NCBI GenBank assembly: GCA_947575425.1
Contig: CANPNQ010000068.1
Span: forward strand, 1-6,204
Direction of reading: 5' to 3'
Length of the DNA: 6,204 nucleotides
Source: an uncultured Erysipelotrichaceae bacterium
GTDB taxonomy: Bacteria; Bacillota_I; Bacilli_A; Erysipelotrichales; Erysipelotrichaceae
Shown: piece by piece, positions 1 to 6,204 of the stretch
Numbering within the stretch: the first letter of the stretch is position 1
Layout: each line of letters opens with the position of its first letter
The notes under the pieces: model-generated
The model's input: the letters and a program-made list of their open reading frames with translations, nothing else
The model's database searches: none
What the model was told of the DNA's origin: nothing
Position numbers and translations under genes: made by a program

Positions 1-1057
1 CTCTGCCAAAATGCCCATAACAGGCAGTCTGTTTATAAATCGGTCGACAGAGATCTAATTCAGCGATGATGTGAGCGACCTCAAAATTGAAGTTTTTCTC
101 GATGATCTCCAATATCTCCTCATTTGATTTGACTCCCGTGCCAAAGGTATCGACCATGATTGAAACCGGCTTCGCCTTGCCAATCGCATAGGCAACCTGT
201 ATCTCACATTTGCGTGCCAGCTGATGTGCAACGATGTTTTTTGCGACATAGCGACAATAATAAGCCGCAGAGCGATCTACTTTGGATGGATCTTTGCTGG
301 AGAAGCAGCCTCCGCCAATCCTTCCCATACCGCCATAGGTATCCACAACAATCTTTCTGCCGGTGGTTCCGCTGTCGCCAAAGCTGCCGCCCAAAACAAA
401 GCTGCCGCTGGGATTAATCAAAAATTTGGTATTTTCATCGATCAGCTTCGGGTCGATAGTCGGTTGAATGACTTCTTTCATGATGAGATCGGCAATCTCC
501 TCCTGCGTAGCATCCTTACTATGCTGGGTAGATACCACGATCGTATCAATGCGCTTCACATGATCATCTTCATATTCTACACTGACCTGTGTTTTGCCAT
601 CAGGCTTTAATATCGGATGGTCGCCTCTAACATCGCTTAGGCGCTTGGCCAAGCGATGCGCATAATCGATCGCTGCTGGCATATAGTTATCCGTATCATC
701 ACACGCATAACCAAACATGATGCCCTGATCTCCTGCGCCCATTGCACTTCCATCCTGCATCACAGCCTGATTGATCTCATTGGACTGCTTGTTCACCTTT
801 ACCATCACATGATAGGTTTCCTCATAACCAATCTCACGGATCGTATCCAAAGCGATTTGCTCATAATCAATCACCGCATTGGTATTCGCTTCTCCATAAA
901 TCAGGACAAAATCATCCTTGATCGTACATTCTACTGCCATTTTCGAGGTTGGATCCTGTGCCAGTGCGGCATCTAAAATACCATCAGCGATCTGATCGCA
1001 AATCTTATCCGGATGTCCTTCGGTAATACTTTCTGATGTAAAAACATAACGGTTCAT
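1..1057 (-). CDS. metK: S-adenosylmethionine synthetase (methionine adenosyltransferase), C-terminus cut by window edge
   Basis: This cytosolic enzyme makes S-adenosylmethionine from ATP and methionine, releasing phosphate and pyrophosphate. Translating the minus strand from ATG at 1057 gives 352 codons without a stop. It begins MNRYVFTSESITEGHPDKIC, with the catalytic His of GHPDK. It then shows GAGDQGIMFGY (signature 1, ATP binding), TGRKIVVDTYGG, GGGCFSSKDPSKVDRS (the P-loop-like signature 2, keeping the active-site Lys and Asp residues) and, at the edge, a YGHFGR motif. The family is usually 380-400 residues, so about 20-30 are missing off the left edge. Signature 2 is preceded by GRI where many bacteria have ARH, and has CFSS instead of AFSG; both fit the family pattern. 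The start is fixed by AGGAGG at 1065-1070, 7 nt upstream. A SAM-I riboswitch precedes it, which independently supports the call. Confidence 0.97.
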   Translation of the reverse strand, partial: MNRYVFTSESITEGHPDKICDQIADGILDAALAQDPTSKMAVECTIKDDFVLIYGEANTNAVIDYEQIALDTIREIGYEETYHVMVKVNKQSNEINQAVMQDGSAMGAGDQGIMFGYACDDTDNYMPAAIDYAHRLAKRLSDVRGDHPILKPDGKTQVSVEYEDDHVKRIDTIVVSTQHSKDATQEEIADLIMKEVIQPTIDPKLIDENTKFLINPSGSFVLGGSFGDSGTTGRKIVVDTYGGMGRIGGGCFSSKDPSKVDRSAAYYCRYVAKNIVAHQLARKCEIQVAYAIGKAKPVSIMVDTFGTGVKSNEEILEIIEKNFNFEVAHIIAELDLCRPIYKQTACYGHFGR

Positions 1058-1071
1058 ATGAATTCCTCCTA

Positions 1072-1099
1072 TAAAAAAGCCTTCTGACAAGAGAAGGCT
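1072..1099 (-). terminator. Intrinsic terminator of the metK SAM riboswitch
   Basis: On the minus strand AGCCTTCT (1099-1092) pairs perfectly with AGAAGGCT (1085-1078) around a 6-nt loop, followed at once by a T run (1078-1073). It lies directly after the SAM-I aptamer and abuts the metK Shine-Dalgarno sequence (1065-1070), so termination here would remove metK from the transcript. The loop-side sequence CTCTTGTC (1093-1086) is also the partner in the competing antiterminator, so the two structures are mutually exclusive. Confidence 0.92.
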
Positions 1100-1117
1100 A
1101 CTATCATCATCATACGC

Positions 1118-1210
1118 ATCTCTTATCGCTGTCAGCATTACCACCTTGCCATAGGCAGGTTGGCGTGGGATCAAACGAGCTAACTCTCTAACCCAACTCT
1201 TGATAATAAG
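1118..1210 (-). promoter_or_regulatory. SAM-I (S-box) riboswitch aptamer controlling metK
   Basis: Read on the minus strand, the S-box landmarks occur in order: TTATCAAGAG at the 5' side (1206-1197), a GATCCCACGCCAACC segment, a P3 hairpin ACCTGCC/GGCAAGGT, AAGGTGGTAATGC (compare the family's AAGGUGCUAAnUCC), a short P4 hairpin GCTGACAGC, and GATAAGAG closing P1 (1127-1120). P1 can form from TTATC (1206-1202) with GATAA (1127-1123). GATAAGAG can instead pair over 8 bp (one G-U) with CTCTTGTC at 1093-1086, which destroys the terminator. By family logic, bound SAM stabilises P1 and allows termination, while low SAM allows the antiterminator and metK expression. Some core bases differ from the commonest consensus (AGAGAG where AGGGA is usual), so it is a slight variant. 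Confidence 0.92.
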
Positions 1211-1219
1211 GCTGACTAT

Positions 1220-1248
1220 ATTAAACCACAGTATTGACGTAATTGCAA
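1220..1248 (-). promoter_or_regulatory. Probable metK promoter (extended -10)
   Basis: On the minus strand TTGCAA (1248-1243) is followed after 17 nt by TTTAAT (1225-1220), preceded by TGG, which gives an extended -10 of the TGn type. Transcription would start near 1213, just before the riboswitch P1 strand, exactly where a riboswitch transcript should begin. The -35 is a weak match (4 of 6); the -10 matches 5 of 6. Confidence 0.65.
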
Positions 1249-1249
1249 C

Positions 1250-1289
1250 TAAAAAACGAAAAATCGTAAGCTGCTTCACGAAAATCGTA
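1250..1289 (-). terminator. Possible terminator after the AraC gene, built from two near-identical mini-hairpins
   Basis: The minus strand holds ACGATTTTCGT (1288-1278) and ACGATTTTTCGT (1267-1256), each self-complementary through ACGA/TCGT. Between them is CGT-g-AAG-cag-CTT-ACG, a weak 6-bp stem. The whole block is followed by six T (1256-1251). This could end the AraC transcript before the metK promoter, but the stems are short and AT-rich and the T run sits only a few bases upstream of the metK -35. Confidence 0.35.
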
Positions 1290-1335
1290 GAGAGAATAAT
1301 AGAAGGATAGGGAGTGCTTCCTATAGAAATGCAAA

Positions 1336-2217
1336 TCAGTATGCTCCCCTGCGGTATCGGCTTCGATAGGCACGGGGCGTGCATTTCATCTTGTCCTTAA
1401 AGCATTTACCGAAATAGCTCAACTGATGAAATCCCGTTTGTTCCGCAATTTCACCAATCGGCAATGCGCTGTTTTTTAACAGATCCGCTGCTTTGGATAA
1501 GCGATATTCGCATAAATACTTCATCGGTGTCGTATACAATTTATCCTTGAAGCAACGCAGGCATTCAGATGGACTCACCTGTGCGCTTTTTGCCAACTGC
1601 TCCAGTGTGATATCCTCATGATAATGTGCTTCGATATAATGGAGAAATAATCCTATGCGCTCATTGGCTGCATCTCCTTTTTCCTCTTTCACAGCGATGT
1701 TCTTTTGTAGGATCAGCCACAGCGTATGTAATAACACAAGCACCTCATAAGCATACCATGCATCTTTTTGCTTCTCCAGTTGGGAGAGCTGTTTCAGCTT
1801 ATCCAGTGCATCCGCATGCCATGCTTGTCTTCCATCCATCAAATACAGCATCATCTGTTTATGATCCATGAACTGGTATACCATGCTTTTGATAGGAGAT
1901 CCTAAGTAAAATTCAAGAAAATAGGCGGGAAAGCGAATGCTGTTGTAATGGCATTTCCCGATGTTTTCGATGCGGTGTACGACACTGCGATTGATAAAAG
2001 CACCCTGTGCCTCCCGCAAACGTACAACTTCATTTAATGTTGTGATCTCAATGTTTCCTTGTATGACATAGACAAATTGCAGATCCTCATGCCAGTGCAT
2101 CACACGAAAACCACTGCTGCGGGGATAGCTTTCTTCATCAATGACTTCCATGTTCAAATAAGGAAAATCCGTGTGCCGGTTGAGATTCTTTGCATTGATA
2201 TATTGGTTTTGCTTCAT
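1336..2217 (-). CDS. AraC-family transcriptional regulator, cupin sensor plus double HTH
   Basis: This 293-residue DNA-binding regulator has the standard AraC-family size and layout. Residues ~20-100 form a cupin-type sensing domain: HWHEDLQFVYVIQGNIEI at 41-58 carries the His-x-His and strand-turn-Gly pattern, and INRSVVHRIEN (75-85) follows. Residues ~186-290 form the HTH_18 domain. The first helix-turn-helix is DITLEQLAKSAQVSPSECLR (202-221). The second is LPIGEIAEQTGFHQLSYFGK (252-271), followed by FKDKMKCTPRAYR, the family's signature end. The start is ATG at 2217, because AGGAGG lies 6 nt upstream; a longer reading from TTG at 2259 would add 14 codons with no visible ribosome binding site. 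The gene faces away from a MATE transporter gene, the usual arrangement for a local regulator. The ligand cannot be read from sequence. Confidence 0.95.
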   Translation of the reverse strand: MKQNQYINAKNLNRHTDFPYLNMEVIDEESYPRSSGFRVMHWHEDLQFVYVIQGNIEITTLNEVVRLREAQGAFINRSVVHRIENIGKCHYNSIRFPAYFLEFYLGSPIKSMVYQFMDHKQMMLYLMDGRQAWHADALDKLKQLSQLEKQKDAWYAYEVLVLLHTLWLILQKNIAVKEEKGDAANERIGLFLHYIEAHYHEDITLEQLAKSAQVSPSECLRCFKDKLYTTPMKYLCEYRLSKAADLLKNSALPIGEIAEQTGFHQLSYFGKCFKDKMKCTPRAYRSRYRRGAY

Positions 2218-2223
2218 GAGCGC

Positions 2224-2229
2224 CCTCCT
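2224..2229 (-). promoter_or_regulatory. Ribosome binding site that fixes the AraC-family start
   Basis: Minus-strand AGGAGG is separated by GCGCTC from ATG at 2217-2215. It selects this start over the in-frame TTG at 2259-2257, whose upstream sequence is only A/T-rich. Confidence 0.85.
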
Positions 2230-2237
2230 GTATGACG

Positions 2238-2269
2238 ATATTTTAATATTTTTAGGCAATATTTTAATA
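2238..2269. repeat. 11-bp perfect direct repeat at 21-bp period, candidate AraC-family operator
   Basis: ATATTTTAATA occurs at 2238-2248 and again at 2259-2269, exactly 21 bp apart (two helical turns). Some flanking bases also match (G-n-C-n before, T at +2 and +4 after). If transporter transcription starts near 2303, the copies lie at about -65 to -55 and -44 to -34. That is close to the araI1-I2 geometry known for AraC activators. The copies also lie in the 5' leader of the AraC gene itself, which would allow autoregulation. AT-richness makes a chance match possible. Confidence 0.5.
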
Positions 2270-2287
2270 GTATATCTTCATTGACAA
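2261..2287 (-). promoter_or_regulatory. Weak candidate promoter for the AraC-family gene
   Basis: On the minus strand TTGTCA (2287-2282) is followed after 15 nt by TAAAAT (2266-2261). A TATACT (2274-2269) is an alternative -10 but has no -35 at normal spacing. Spacing of 15 is short, so the exact promoter is uncertain. It would overlap the transporter promoter region and the 21-bp-spaced repeat. Confidence 0.3.
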
Positions 2288-2296
2288 TGATATAAT
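2288..2296 (+). promoter_or_regulatory. Extended -10 promoter for the MATE transporter
   Basis: TGATATAAT (2288-2296) is a perfect TATAAT with the TGn extension. No good -35 lies 16-18 nt upstream (TAGTAT at 2268-2273), as expected of an activator-dependent promoter. A TTGACA at 2281-2286 is only 4 nt away, too close to act as its -35. The predicted start near 2303 gives a leader of about 215 nt before the transporter ATG. ACAAT (2284-2288) and ATTGT (2295-2299) form a small dyad over the -10. Confidence 0.6.
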
Positions 2297-2377
2297 TGTA
2301 TTCGATTTGGCAAGGATGTCAAGGAAATCAGGAACTATAAAAGCTTAGGCGGTGATCATTTTCATAGAAGGGAAGGG

Positions 2378-2515
2378 ATGACGCAAAAAGCATGCCGGCA
2401 CGAAATCGCTCATACTGCCAACCGCGCTATGATGGGCAATGAGAGCGATTCCTCCAACATAAGGAAATCACTTAACGACATTGATCAATTAAAAAAAACG
2501 AAAAGGGGGATGTAA
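2378..2515 (+). CDS. Possible 45-residue upstream ORF / leader peptide ahead of the MATE gene
   Basis: ATG at 2378 opens a 45-codon frame that starts MTQKACRHEIAH and ends KKTKRGM, with TAA at 2513-2515, 2 nt before the transporter ATG at 2518. A moderate Shine-Dalgarno-like AAGGG (2368-2372) lies 5 nt upstream. The frame is open further back, to a TGA at 2288-2290, but holds no other usual start codon. The final codons AGG GGG ATG overlap the transporter's ribosome binding site, so translation of this frame would be coupled to that of the transporter. The peptide is hydrophilic, with no signal peptide or membrane segment, and I recognise no family. It could be a regulatory leader peptide or a chance open frame; a leader hairpin lies inside it. 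No function is assigned. Confidence 0.35.
   Translation: MTQKACRHEIAHTANRAMMGNESDSSNIRKSLNDIDQLKKTKRGM
2404..2450 (+). promoter_or_regulatory. Imperfect hairpin in the MATE leader, possible RNA regulator
   Basis: AATCGCT (2404-2410) pairs with AGCGATT (2444-2450), CAT (2411-2413) with ATG (2439-2441) after a 2-nt bulge, and TGCC (2416-2419) with GGCA (2435-2438) after an AC bulge, leaving a ~15-nt loop. No T run follows, so it is not an intrinsic terminator. CCTCC (2451-2455), just after the stem, can pair with GGGGG (2505-2509) of the transporter's ribosome binding site (one G-U). I could not match it to a known riboswitch class. Confidence 0.45.
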
Positions 2516-2517
2516 AG

Positions 2518-3891
2518 ATGAAAACAAGACAGGTCGATTTTTCAAGCGGCAGGATCACGCACAATATCGTCAGTGTCGCAATGCCGATGCTCATTGCACA
2601 GGTGCTGAATCTGCTTTACAATATTGTGGATCGAATTTACATCGGTCAAATTCCGGAGGTGGGAACGATCGCCTTGGGCGCACTCGGCTTGTGCTTTCCC
2701 ATCATCTCTATCGTCACCGCATTCACCAATTTATTTGGAGCAGGCGGCGCTCCCTTATGCTCGATTGAGCGGGGCAAAGGAAACCGTGAGGAAGCGGAGC
2801 GGATCATGAACACTTCCTTTTATCTGTTGGTGATCACAGGAGTGGTTGTCACAATGATTGGTATTATTTTTTGTGAACCGCTGTTGTATTTGTTTGGGGC
2901 ATCCGATGCCAACATGGTATACGCTCAACCTTATATGCAAATCTATATGTGGGGTACGGTATTTTCCATGATCGCTTTGGGAATGAATCCTTTCATCAAT
3001 GCACAGGGTTTTGCGAATGTCGGTATGACTACGGTATTTCTGGGAGCTGCCTTGAATATCGTTCTGGATCCCCTGTTTATCTTTGTGCTGGATTTGGGAG
3101 TACAGGGAGCCGCATGGGCGACCATATGTTCTCAGCTAGTTTCAGCCATCTTCGTTCTGCGCTTTTTATTGGTCGGCAGATCCGAACTGCACATCCATTT
3201 AAAGAAAGGATATTTCTGTGAGCGCAAGCAGGTGGGAAATATCATCGGTTTGGGAAGTGCCAGTTTTGTAATGCAATGTACCAATAGTCTTGTGCAGATC
3301 AGCGCCAATCATGTATTGGGAACCTTTGGCGGCGATCTATATATTTCCACAATGACGATTATCAATTCCGTGCGGCAGATCTTGGACACGCCGGTTCATG
3401 CGATCTCGGAAGGCGCATCTCCGGTGTTAAGCTATAACTATGGCGCAGGTAATTATGCCGGTGTCAAACAGGCAATCCGTTTTGTGACGTTATCAGAACT
3501 CGCTTATACAGCCATTGTTTGGGGGCTGATCCTTCTATGTCCTACCATGTTTATCGCCATTTTCAATTCCGACAGTATGCTGATGGAGATTGCTGTGCCC
3601 GCACTTCACACGTATTTCTTCGCCTTTATTTTTCAGGCACTGATGTACAGTGCACAGATGGTATTTAAAGCATTGAATAAAAAGAAGCAGGCGATTTTCT
3701 TTTCCTTATTGCGAAAGGTCATCATTGTGGTACCTTTGACATATCTGCTGCCACATGTGGGAGGTTTGGGCGCAATGGGAGTATTTATCGCAGAGCCGGT
3801 ATCGAATTTTGTCGGTGGATGTATTTGTTTTGGGGCCATGATTTATACCGTATTACCGGAGCTGAAGGAAAAAGCGGAGAATAAGGAGTAA
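2518..3891 (+). CDS. MATE-family multidrug/cation antiporter, MepA-like
   Basis: This 457-residue inner-membrane protein has the length and 12-helix pattern of MATE exporters, which expel cationic drugs or metabolites using a Na+ or H+ gradient. Family features in order are: an N-terminal amphipathic stretch; helix 1 with PMLIAQVLNLLYNIVDRIYIG (23-43); GAGGAPLCSIERGKGNREEA (74-93), the loop after helix 2; NIVLDPLFIF (180-189) and GVQGAAWAT (194-202) near helices 5-6; and in the second half EGASPVLSYNYGAGN (298-312), the matching repeat motif. The C-terminus is charged and cytoplasmic (ELKEKAENKE). The start is ATG at 2518, with an AGGGGG site at 2504-2509. It is divergent from an AraC-family gene that probably controls it. 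MepA/DinF-type is my best subfamily guess; substrate is unknown. Confidence 0.95.
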   Translation: MKTRQVDFSSGRITHNIVSVAMPMLIAQVLNLLYNIVDRIYIGQIPEVGTIALGALGLCFPIISIVTAFTNLFGAGGAPLCSIERGKGNREEAERIMNTSFYLLVITGVVVTMIGIIFCEPLLYLFGASDANMVYAQPYMQIYMWGTVFSMIALGMNPFINAQGFANVGMTTVFLGAALNIVLDPLFIFVLDLGVQGAAWATICSQLVSAIFVLRFLLVGRSELHIHLKKGYFCERKQVGNIIGLGSASFVMQCTNSLVQISANHVLGTFGGDLYISTMTIINSVRQILDTPVHAISEGASPVLSYNYGAGNYAGVKQAIRFVTLSELAYTAIVWGLILLCPTMFIAIFNSDSMLMEIAVPALHTYFFAFIFQALMYSAQMVFKALNKKKQAIFFSLLRKVIIVVPLTYLLPHVGGLGAMGVFIAEPVSNFVGGCICFGAMIYTVLPELKEKAENKE

Positions 3892-3946
3892 GTAAGGTTT
3901 GTTTTCTTCTACACTCATTGACTGCTTTACTCATGCCTTATTTTTT
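3890..3946 (+). terminator. Weak candidate terminator after the MATE gene
   Basis: AAGTAAGG (3890-3897, overlapping the stop codon) can pair over 8 bp with CCTTATTT (3936-3943, one G-U), and a T run (3941-3946) follows. The 38-nt loop is large for an intrinsic terminator, so this is tentative. Confidence 0.25.
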
Positions 3947-4230
3947 ACTAACGAAATTATTACTTTTTGATGCGAATACTTTGTTTACCTCACTCGTGTT
4001 GATACGTGCTATTTTAAAAGATTTCTCTTTATGTATAAAAGGAATAGAACAGTGCTCTATCTTTTAGATAATCATACTCCATCGGCTTTGCCTTTGGTTT
4101 GTTTGTCGTTCTCTGGCGATAGCGCACTTTCCTTAGACATATAGATTCACACCCTTTCTTACTTCATTCCCAATTCTTACAAACAAATTATATCAAAGCG
4201 GTAGTTTATATAAAAGTTTTCTTTTTTTCT
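3947..4230. other. Intergenic stretch without a convincing gene
   Basis: This AT-rich stretch has no supportable gene. The minus strand is open for 45 codons from 4163 to a stop at 4029-4031, but has only a GTG start (4127) and no ribosome binding site. Its translation (RYRQRTTNKPKAKPMEYDYL and on) is basic and unrecognised, and might be a decayed gene end. The rest is pyrimidine-rich filler on the plus strand. Confidence 0.4.
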
Positions 4231-4262
4231 CTTTCGGAGCTTCAAAATTAGATAAAACGTAG

Positions 4263-4284
4263 AAATACGCAAAATTACCGAAAG
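4263..4284 (+). repeat. 22-bp direct repeat, copy 1, upstream of the ATPase promoter
   Basis: It begins AAATACGC, continues AAAATT, has A at 4277 and ends CCGAAAG. It matches copy 2 (4339-4360) at 21 of 22 positions. It ends 6 nt upstream of the -35 (4291-4296). With a start near 4326 its centre is at about -52, a normal place for a regulator site. CTTTCGG at 4231-4237 is an inverted copy of its last 7 bases. Confidence 0.85.
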
Positions 4285-4290
4285 TGAATA

Positions 4291-4319
4291 TTGACGAAGG
4301 AAAGAGCATATGCTATCAT
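4291..4319 (+). promoter_or_regulatory. Strong sigma-70/A-type promoter for the AAA ATPase gene
   Basis: TTGACG (4291-4296, 5 of 6 consensus) and TATCAT (4314-4319, 5 of 6) are separated by exactly 17 nt, predicting a start near 4326 and a ~45-nt leader. The spacer ends in AGCATATGCT (4305-4314), a perfect 10-bp palindrome overlapping the first -10 base. The promoter sits between two copies of a 22-bp repeat. Confidence 0.75.
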
Positions 4320-4338
4320 AAAACATGTAAAATTGTGT

Positions 4339-4360
4339 AAATACGCAAAATTCCCGAAAG
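4339..4360 (+). repeat. 22-bp direct repeat, copy 2, adjoining the ATPase ribosome binding site
   Basis: This is the same element as at 4263-4284 except for C at 4353. It lies in the transcribed leader, and its last base (G 4360) is the first base of GAGGTG (4360-4365), the Shine-Dalgarno site 5 nt before ATG 4371. A protein bound here could block elongation or, on RNA, translation. The two copies are 76 bp apart start to start. Confidence 0.85.
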
Positions 4361-4370
4361 AGGTGTAGCT

Positions 4371-5669
4371 ATGATTGAAAGAAAGCAATATCTAGAAAGA
4401 TTAATTTCAAAAAAAGAGAACGGTCTTGTAAAGGTCATTACCGGTATCAGACGATGTGGCAAATCTTACATTCTTTTCAACATATACAAAAACTATTTGC
4501 AGTCTATCGGTGTAGAGGAGGGGTGCATTATCTGCCTTGCTCTTGACGATGATGAGAGTATTAAATATCGCAATCCACTTGAGCTCGGTAAGTATATTCG
4601 TAGCTTAACTGCCGACAAGAGCAAAATCTATTATGTATTTCTCGACGAGATACAGAAGGTTGTTACCATTCAAAATCCTTATATCGAAGGCGCTGAAGAC
4701 AAGATCGGTTTCGTAGACGTCGTTCTTGGTCTTATGAAACAAGACAATATTGATGTGTATGTAACTGGAAGCAACTCCAAGATGCTGTCCACTGATATTC
4801 TGACTGAATTCCGCGGTCGTGGAGATGAGATAAGGGTCAATCCCTTGTCGTTTGAGGAGTTTTATAACGCTTTTGAAGGTGACAAACGCGATGCGTGGCG
4901 AGAGTATTATACCTATGGTGGCTTACCTCTAGTAATGAAGATGAAAGGACATGAAGAAAAAGCAAAATATCTGCAATCGCTGTTCGACAAGATCTATCTC
5001 GGTGATATCATAGAGCGCAATAAAATCATAAAGGACAAGTCGATTCTTGATGATATACTAAATATCGTTTCTTCGTCTATCGGCTCGCTGACCAACGCAG
5101 GCAAAATTGCCAAAACCTTTAAAAGCGAAAGGCAAGTCACTATAAGTGACGATACTGTCAGCAGATATTTGGATTTCTTCATTGATGCTTTTATGCTATA
5201 TAAAGCGAATCGTTATGATGTGAAAGGAAGAAAATATATTGGATCTCCGTTGAAGTATTATTTCAGCGATGTCGGCTTGCGTAATGCAAGACTCAATTTC
5301 CGTCAGCAGGAAGAGAACCATATTATGGAAAATATCATCTACAATGAGCTTTGTATCCGTGATTTCACCGTAGATGTAGGCGTTGTTGAATATTGCTACA
5401 AAGACGAACATAAAAAAAGCAAGCGCACGCAGTTGGAAATCGACTTTGTAGCGAATAAGGGCAGTAAAAAATATTATATCCAGTCTGCGCTTACTATTGC
5501 CGATGAAGAAAAGCGCAATCAGGAGATCTGTTCCTTAAAGCGCATAGGGGATTCCTTCAAAAAAATCGTTGTAGTCAAAGACAATATCCTCCCTTGGTAC
5601 GATAATGACGGAATCCTCTACATTGGTATTGAACAGTTCCTGCTTGATCAAAATGCAGTGGATATATGA
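4371..5669 (+). CDS. AAA-family ATPase with DUF4143-like C-terminus (COG1373 type)
   Basis: This 432-residue soluble protein is of the AAA_14/DUF4143 type, usually 380-450 residues. Residues ~15-150 are the ATPase: Walker A GIRRCGKS (25-32), Walker B YYVFLDEIQ (87-95) and a sensor-like VYVTGSNSKML (129-139), then EFRGRG (146-151) and the family's VNPLSFEEF (156-164) and YTYGGLP (180-186). Residues ~200-300 look like a helical/winged region (DTVSRYLDFFIDAFMLYKANRYD, 261-283). The C-terminal part has NIIYNELCIR (321-330), QLEIDFVA (354-361) and KYYIQSA (367-373). That is the core pattern of the PD-(D/E)XK nuclease-like fold, with Gln where an active enzyme often has Lys. The family is abundant and often multicopy in gut bacteria and archaea; its function is not established. 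It stands alone, with its own promoter bracketed by 22-bp repeats, and starts at ATG 4371 (GAGGTG at 4360-4365). Confidence 0.93.
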   Translation: MIERKQYLERLISKKENGLVKVITGIRRCGKSYILFNIYKNYLQSIGVEEGCIICLALDDDESIKYRNPLELGKYIRSLTADKSKIYYVFLDEIQKVVTIQNPYIEGAEDKIGFVDVVLGLMKQDNIDVYVTGSNSKMLSTDILTEFRGRGDEIRVNPLSFEEFYNAFEGDKRDAWREYYTYGGLPLVMKMKGHEEKAKYLQSLFDKIYLGDIIERNKIIKDKSILDDILNIVSSSIGSLTNAGKIAKTFKSERQVTISDDTVSRYLDFFIDAFMLYKANRYDVKGRKYIGSPLKYYFSDVGLRNARLNFRQQEENHIMENIIYNELCIRDFTVDVGVVEYCYKDEHKKSKRTQLEIDFVANKGSKKYYIQSALTIADEEKRNQEICSLKRIGDSFKKIVVVKDNILPWYDNDGILYIGIEQFLLDQNAVDI

Positions 5670-6000
5670 TCTTAAATAATACTTCATCATGTTTGTCACA
5701 TAGATTGGCCTAGAGCTCTCGATTCCGACGGTAAGCTTGGTCCTTGTGTCCTTGATAATAATGCCTTGTTATGGTAATGAATCTATTGAACTTCATTCCT
5801 GAGGTGTTATATATACTCAAATCCTCGCTACCAATGACTCCTCTTTTTGTTTGGATGTTCCCCATAAGCAAATTGTCTTTCCTATATCTGCTTCCCTGAG
5901 AAGCTGGTTCAGGTAAGAGCGTTCTCTTCTTCATTTGCTTTTCATTGCTGCCAGAAACACTATTATTCTATTGTAATCATAATCTTTGACATTCTTATTA
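5670..6000. other. Intergenic stretch after the ATPase, no convincing gene
   Basis: I see no terminator directly after the ATPase stop. The minus strand carries a 74-codon frame (ATG at 5934, stop at 5710-5712) that is not a shadow of another gene. It lacks a ribosome binding site, and its translation (RYRKDNLLMGNIQTKRGV, later ITRHYYQGHKDQAYRR) is basic and unrecognised. It may be a decayed gene fragment or chance; I give it about 0.2 as a real gene. The plus strand is pyrimidine-rich and has no ORF of note. Confidence 0.4.
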
Positions 6001-6049
6001 AACAAAAAATGAACAATCCTTTAAAAAAAGATTGACCAAAGGTTCATTT
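6001..6049 (-). terminator. Second of two tandem minus-strand terminator-like hairpins
   Basis: On the minus strand AAATGAA (6049-6043) pairs with TTCATTT (6013-6007) and CCTTT (6042-6038) with AAAGG (6022-6018), leaving a 4-nt bulge and a 15-nt loop. The stem runs into a T tract (6009-6004) followed by GTTT. Alternative inner pairing AATC/GATT is possible. On the plus strand no T run follows, so a leftward transcript is the likelier client. Confidence 0.5.
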
Positions 6050-6087
6050 ATAATAAAAACTCAGGCACTCGTAATGAGCATCTGAGT
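6050..6087 (-). terminator. First of two tandem minus-strand terminator-like hairpins
   Basis: On the minus strand ACTCAG (6087-6082) pairs with CTGAGT (6064-6059), with an inner CTC/GAG stem around ATTAC, followed by TTTTATTAT (6058-6050). It would end a leftward transcript, matching the open frame that enters from the right edge and stops at 6153. Confidence 0.6.
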
Positions 6088-6152
6088 CACGTTTAGATTA
6101 AGAAACATATTGCTATGCTTCTATCACCAAGTATAACAAGTATACTTTATCG

Positions 6153-6204
6153 TTACCCTAAGCCTATTTTACGAAATAGGCTTTGCAATTCAACTGGTGA
6201 CGCG
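6153..6204 (-). CDS. C-terminal end of an unidentified gene entering from the right edge
   Basis: On the minus strand a frame is open from the window edge (first full codon 6203-6201) to TAA at 6155-6153, giving the last 16 residues ASPVELQSLFRKIGLG. Terminator-like hairpins 66 nt and more downstream on the same strand support a real gene end. The SPVE near the terminus is loosely like the SPVEYR end of IS3-family transposases, but 16 residues are far too few to assign a family. It could also be a chance open frame. Confidence 0.4.
   Translation of the reverse strand, partial: ASPVELQSLFRKIGLG
6161..6182. repeat. Perfect 9-bp inverted repeat with 4-nt loop
   Basis: AGCCTATTT (6161-6169) and AAATAGGCT (6174-6182) are perfect reverse complements around TACG. 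Only TTT (6182-6184) follows on the plus strand, and the minus strand has no T run, so it is not a typical terminator. It overlaps the 3' end of the partial minus-strand frame. Confidence 0.6.

Follow-up and report, generated by a model that had tools for sequence, protein, structure and literature searches.

Paired palindromic sites around the promoter of a PDC-S01-type ATPase gene are probably operators for the ATPase's own winged helix

The DNA described here (the window, 6,204 nucleotides) comes from an uncultured Erysipelotrichaceae bacterium (GenBank assembly GCA_947575425.1, contig CANPNQ010000068.1, positions 1 to 6,204 of the forward strand). On the minus strand, a SAM riboswitch at 1104-1209 (Rfam RF00162, 47.8 bits) lies in the metK leader. 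It is followed by a gene for an AraC-type regulator (1336-2259, minus strand), which is divergent from a MATE transporter gene (2518-3891, plus strand). A gap of 479 bp (3892-4370) then separates the transporter gene from a gene encoding an ATPase of 432 amino acids. The features of the gap and of the ATPase gene are as follows.

4246..4284, plus strand: op1, the first dyad, a putative operator; core 4259-4270, centre 4264/4265, right arm AAATACGCAAAATTACCGAAAG (direct repeat, dyad statistic, core conserved in relatives)
4291..4319, plus strand: predicted promoter TTGACG-17-TATCAT, with TG ahead of the -10 (promoter search; best site in the inter-dyad stretch, a search made in 109 loci)
4322..4360, plus strand: op2, the second dyad, a putative operator; core 4335-4346, centre 4340/4341, right arm AAATACGCAAAATTCCCGAAAG (direct repeat, dyad-pair statistic)
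4358..4364, plus strand: Shine-Dalgarno-like region AAGAGGTG, overlapping the end of op2 (sequence)
4371..5669, plus strand: ATPase, 432 amino acids, AAA_14 and DUF4143, PDC-S01 (Pfam, PADLOC, predicted structure)
5148..5186, plus strand: predicted third (recognition) helix, residues 260-272 (AlphaFold2, operator co-variation)
5388..5435, plus strand: basic hairpin of the C-terminal domain, residues 340-355 (post-hoc co-variation peak, hairpin length)

The most visible element of the gap is a direct repeat. Two copies of AAATACGCAAAATT[A/C]CCGAAAG lie at 4263-4284 and 4339-4360, identical at 21 of 22 positions and 76 bp apart from start to start. When the gap was shuffled 1000 times with its dinucleotides preserved, the best pair of 22-mers never exceeded 18 of 22. 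A sequence-only reading of this DNA had reported the repeat, the promoter between its copies, copies near -52 and +24, and a second copy that reaches the Shine-Dalgarno site. All four observations were recovered: with transcription starting at about 4326, as inferred from the promoter, the centres of the 22-mers fall near -52 and +24, and copy 2 extends into the Shine-Dalgarno sequence (CGAAAGAGGTG), its last base lying ten bases before the ATG at 4371. Op1 ends six bases short of the -35 element, and op2 spans the inferred transcription start and continues up to the Shine-Dalgarno site. Sites resembling a promoter are not unusual within the gap, where three were found and 2.4 were expected. 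The leader folds with -10.1 kcal/mol (z -1.8), and no Rfam family reached its gathering score over copy 2 or the leader.

Each 22-mer of the window is the right part, and the better half, of a nested dyad, that is, of a palindrome. The dyad cores are CGTAGA|AATACG for op1 and GTGTAA|ATACGC for op2. In relatives the full dyad consists of an inner palindrome, such as TGCG and CGCA separated by six bases, flanked by A/T-rich arms and then by outer arms, for example CTTTCG...CGAAAG (locus L037) or CTCGAA...TTCGAG (L091). The left outer arms are degenerate in the window and intact in some relatives, such as L037. Their decay explains why the earlier reading saw a direct repeat. In the test for two dyads described below, the window by itself gave a moderate result, with one of 100 shuffles equalling it (one of 40 in another run), and the strength of the evidence for the two-dyad layout comes from the homologues.

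The protein encoded downstream contains AAA_14 (Pfam, E 3.7e-26) and DUF4143 (E 9.7e-18) and is matched by PADLOC to PDC-S01 (PDLC04787, E 4.8e-106). Its predicted domains are an AAA+ core (residues 1-199), a winged helix (223-298) and an endonuclease-like C-terminal domain (about 313-432), which in the model adopts a PD-(D/E)XK fold. NCBIfam offered no family for the window protein, phmmer with this protein alone found no PDB sequence, a single-protein query of viral contigs gave no relatives, and PHROGs returned no match better than E 0.14. The canonical lysine site of the PD-(D/E)XK motif, position 373, is lysine in none of the 206 aligned homologues; A, S, V, T, C or I stands there, and a displaced lysine is possible. 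This speaks against the proposal that the repeat is a target of a nuclease-like domain. In several homologues from genomes of one bacterial family (e.g., L195, L196), a single in-frame TGA was noticed, which could reflect decay or a different genetic code. Among the 71 nearest open reading frames scanned, from a total of 139, no Pfam family occurred in more than four, and to this extent the description of the gene as an orphan fits. Restriction-type families in these neighbours were ResIII (four) and HSDR_N (two), counts from which no claim is drawn.

The gene had also been said to belong to a group with no settled function. This holds, with the qualification that the family already has a label as a defence candidate. 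PMC12988326 ranks PDC-S01 fourth by frequency among the defence systems of prokaryotes and describes anti-phage validation as pending for most such candidates, and PMC13356809 describes it as the most frequent individual locus of a rumen survey. For an AAA_14/DUF4143 gene of Thermus thermophilus, a table in PMC4406477, in its section on how genes change when plasmid DNA is present, gives a value of 6.6, a hint of variable expression in the wider family.

The layout was then sought upstream of related genes. A scan of named genomes supplied the best 80 of 388 loci, with 65-87% protein identity, and further loci were added from other genomes and plasmid records. This gave 221 loci with the gene, 15 of which were dropped for short upstream DNA or a short frame, leaving 206. 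Each locus was scored for a pair of similar dyads separated by 55-130 bp, and the score was compared with 100 dinucleotide shuffles. The dyad pair beat every shuffle in 111 of the 206 loci, where about two were expected, a count that is not one of independent events, since many of the loci are kin. At most five of the 100 shuffles were as good in 125 loci. Among the 23 loci with at least 75% identity to the window protein (the window included), 21 beat all shuffles, and in the remaining two at most five of 100 were as good. Thus, the repeat does occur upstream of close homologues, as the check proposed with the original observation had asked. At lower identity, all shuffles were beaten in 36/66 loci (60-75%), 25/44 (50-60%), 28/49 (45-50%), 1/11 (40-45%) and 0/13 (below 40%). 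A Spirochaetales genome (L064) and a record of Prevotella nigrescens (L164) also carry paired dyads, and the same layout, in different letters, precedes the gene in many relatives, which belong to three or more bacterial phyla. The Prevotella record is a circle of 2,630 bp that contains only the ATPase gene and a gene for a TaqI-like specificity domain. The paired layout is not universal in the family. In 81 of the 206 loci, more than five of 100 shuffles were as good; in 15 of these, six of which are among the 13 homologues furthest from the window protein, one dyad by itself outscores all 60 shuffles, and the other 66 have neither a pair nor a single dyad by these tests.

Where a pair is present, its arrangement around the promoter is nearly constant. 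In 109 pair-bearing loci, the centre of op1 lies a median of 26.5 bp upstream of the -35 element (quartiles 25.5-26.5) and the centre of op2 a median of 21.5 bp after the -10 element (quartiles 20.5-22.5); the window has exactly 26.5 and 21.5. These distances place op2 over the inferred start and op1 against the -35. A promoter score of at least 10 was reached between the dyads in 66 of the 109 loci and in 19 of 545 shuffled stretches; the cut-off of 10 was used because a score of 8, reached by 417 of the 545, does not discriminate. The dyads are 71-79 bp apart in 84 of the 111 loci, and a second group lies at 81-87. Spacings of 66, 76, 87 and 109 looked periodic, as helical phasing or looping would have it. 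The outlying loci proved to be out of phase with 76 bp, with a mean cosine of about 0.2 for eight and 0.16-0.23 for 17 non-redundant outlying loci, and the earlier suggestion of looping between the copies is not supported in a helically phased form. The geometry is fixed while the sequence differs between lineages and between paralogues.

How the sequence changes can be followed in the close set, which consists of the window and 17 relatives with at least 80% identity. In these 18 loci, the dyad cores are 80 and 82% identical, the outer arms 42-48%, the pieces of the spacer 39-44% (58% for the -35 element) and the DNA upstream of op1 28%. The two copies inside one locus are 80% identical in their right halves and 74% in the outer eight bases. 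Between loci, the corresponding values are 65% and 43% when the proteins differ by 10-20%, and 86% and 84% when they differ by less than 10%. The outer arms thus change fast, but they change together. A single reader for each gene would leave such a trace of concerted change, and gene conversion could also keep op1 and op2 alike.

Co-variation with the protein was examined in 121 of the 125 loci in which at most five of 100 shuffles were as good, with the whole-protein distance held fixed. Operators simulated on the protein tree, a simple clustering tree, served as surrogates. In an unbiased scan, operator distance had its highest correlation (r 0.22) with residues 259-273; the peaks were at 346-363 and 262-282 for the inner arm and at 250-270 for the outer arm. 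The controls peaked lower and elsewhere in the protein (spacer 0.12, upstream DNA 0.07). The height of the scan peak is ordinary, since 122, 44 and 103 of 400 surrogates were as high for the whole dyad, the inner arm and the outer arm, respectively. The bounds 247-282, 337-363 and 257-275 were drawn after the scan, and for a fair test the domain bounds were taken from the predicted fold alone. With these bounds, the winged helix (223-298) followed operator distance with r 0.27 and the third helix (260-272) with r 0.20, and in each case one of 1000 surrogates was as strong. The AAA core (r -0.04, 631 of 1000) and the whole C-terminal domain (r -0.08, 891 of 1000) showed no excess. For the inner arm only, 2 (winged helix) and 9 (helix 260-272) of 1000 surrogates were as strong, and for the outer arm only, 62 and 11.

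Within the C-terminal domain, the basic hairpin at about 340-355 may read the inner arms, an idea formed post hoc. The hairpin window, whose bounds were drawn post hoc, was matched against the inner arm by one of 400 surrogates. The hairpin has five residues in all 13 homologues below 40% identity, none of which has a pair and which may represent few independent events, and 17-18 residues in all 89 homologues with at least 60% identity. At least 14 residues are present in 103 of the 111 loci with a pair, yet also in 64 of the 81 without a clear pair.

In the host assembly (1.49 Mb, 66.5% complete), the sites are private to the gene. With one mismatch at most, the 14-base core has two matches there, and both are the copies at the window locus. 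With two copies and no array, in the window as in the host assembly, the repeat does not resemble the iterons that had been suggested. In the genomes of 20 relatives, the exact 13-base core gave 31 matches and the reversed control four. The promoter of the relative's own gene accounted for 24, one lay just downstream of the gene and six were elsewhere. The repeat is therefore not frequent genome-wide. A genome-wide regulon was considered and rejected: four of the six off-gene matches fall within long frames and two between frames, beside the four matches of the reversed control. Paralogues that share one genome carry different dyads (e.g., L212, L215, L218).

The sites and the gene appear to travel as a unit. 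For the 20 closest relatives (L023-L042), the DNA that resembles the window begins at 4246-4266 in 15 and at 4329-4370 in five, and it ends by 5642-5681, around the stop codon at 5669; the rest of the window is unmatched in them. The ATPase is at most 51% identical to its homologues in six genomes of the same genus and 87% identical to copies in Oscillospiraceae and Clostridia, and the metK end of the window has 77% DNA identity to a same-genus genome (L021). The most likely history is therefore a joint acquisition of operators, promoter and gene. In L021, the metK region corresponding to window positions 1-1228 has another, distant ATPase of the family as its immediate neighbour. At L037/L173, the ATPase gene lies between the copies of a 155-bp direct repeat (1207-1361 and 2746-2899, 92% identical) that contains a terminator-like hairpin and a long, perfect palindrome. 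L097 has two further copies of the promoter-operator segment, at about 350 and 1270 bp upstream of the gene, which may be left over from tandem copies.

Read together, these data suggest that the dyads are paired palindromic operators for the ATPase's own winged helix, probably serving negative autoregulation. The predicted winged helix would read the dyads, perhaps with the aid of the basic hairpin. Op2, lying over the start site, would block transcription, and op1 beside the -35 would help repression; promoters so near consensus need holding down. An altered nucleotide state, or binding elsewhere, might free the protein, and the gene could then be expressed. This agrees with the part of the original interpretation that proposed a specific site, likely the ATPase's own operator; helically phased looping, a nuclease target and iterons are the parts that are not supported. 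The ATPase might instead activate or time its own promoter through the same dyads. All the evidence for the ATPase as reader is shared by this alternative, and op1 adjoins the -35 with its centre near -62, a class I activator position. It is nevertheless unlikely, given that op2 covers the inferred start site and that the near-consensus promoters (score of at least 10 in 66/109) need no activator. A host regulator in place of the ATPase is a still poorer candidate: the sites accompany the gene when it enters unrelated hosts, are not the same in paralogues of a single genome, occur nowhere else in the host assembly and track the ATPase's own winged helix.

Two further explanations shift the role of the dyads away from control of transcription. 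If the ATPase moved a mobile unit of one gene and the dyads were its ends or its recombination sites, this would fit the extent of the shared DNA, which in 15 of the 20 closest relatives runs from op1 to about the stop codon. A further dyad copy also lies downstream of the gene in four of 77 loci (L037, with its 155-bp flanking repeat, L042, L044 and L045). The other 73 loci, the window among them, have no downstream copy by the same test, and both regular copies lie to one side of the gene at set distances from promoter and start codon, which makes this explanation quite improbable. The least probable of all is a role for copy 2 as a translational hairpin of the mRNA leader. The transcript includes copy 2, which reaches the Shine-Dalgarno site, and the leader has the modelled fold given above; against this, copy 1 precedes the promoter and so is absent from its transcript, yet its core is equally conserved (0.80 versus 0.82), and no Rfam family attains its gathering score there.

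As operators of the ATPase, the paired sites are of a familiar kind. Repressors of the GalR and LacI types have two operators around one promoter. As at the window locus, the two are similar and flank the promoter, and one lies over the start site; here, the putative repressor is an AAA+ ATPase with an endonuclease-like domain, and no helical-phase rule applies. By structural comparison, archaeal SSO1545 (2fna), PABY2304 (2qen) and STAND NTPases such as CED-4 resemble the window protein in having an AAA+ core followed by a winged helix, and they leave its C-terminal part uncovered. STAND NTPases have signalling partners, which were not seen for the window ATPase, and we know of no DNA site for SSO1545. 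Orc1/Cdc6 proteins (2qby, 2v1u) bind origins, whereas the sites in the window flank the gene's own promoter and number two per host assembly. The nucleases McrC, Can2 and Hjc are alike in their PD-(D/E)XK fold and differ from the window family, which lacks the lysine at the canonical position. PDC-S01/COG1373-type single-gene ATPases share AAA_14 and DUF4143 with the window protein, and no report of an operator for the PDC-S01/DUF4143/COG1373 family was found in the open-access literature searched. PDC-S01 as a defence candidate is thus known, and the new element is a private, fast-changing operator pair that travels with a gene of this type.

A broader view can be put forward tentatively. The family may possibly consist of self-operated DNA switches rather than nucleases, each gene travelling with a private palindromic operator pair whose readers would be the winged helix and a hairpin of a nuclease-dead endonuclease fold, with protein and operator diversifying together and many copies living in one cell without cross-talk. 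If this is true, private operators would explain how several paralogues live in one genome. If the endonuclease-like domain does not cut, the family's place among nucleases needs rethinking. The predicted cognate DNA site for PDC-S01 members is a direct handle for assays, and the natural series of matched protein-operator pairs offers a way to learn how an AAA+ winged-helix protein picks its site.
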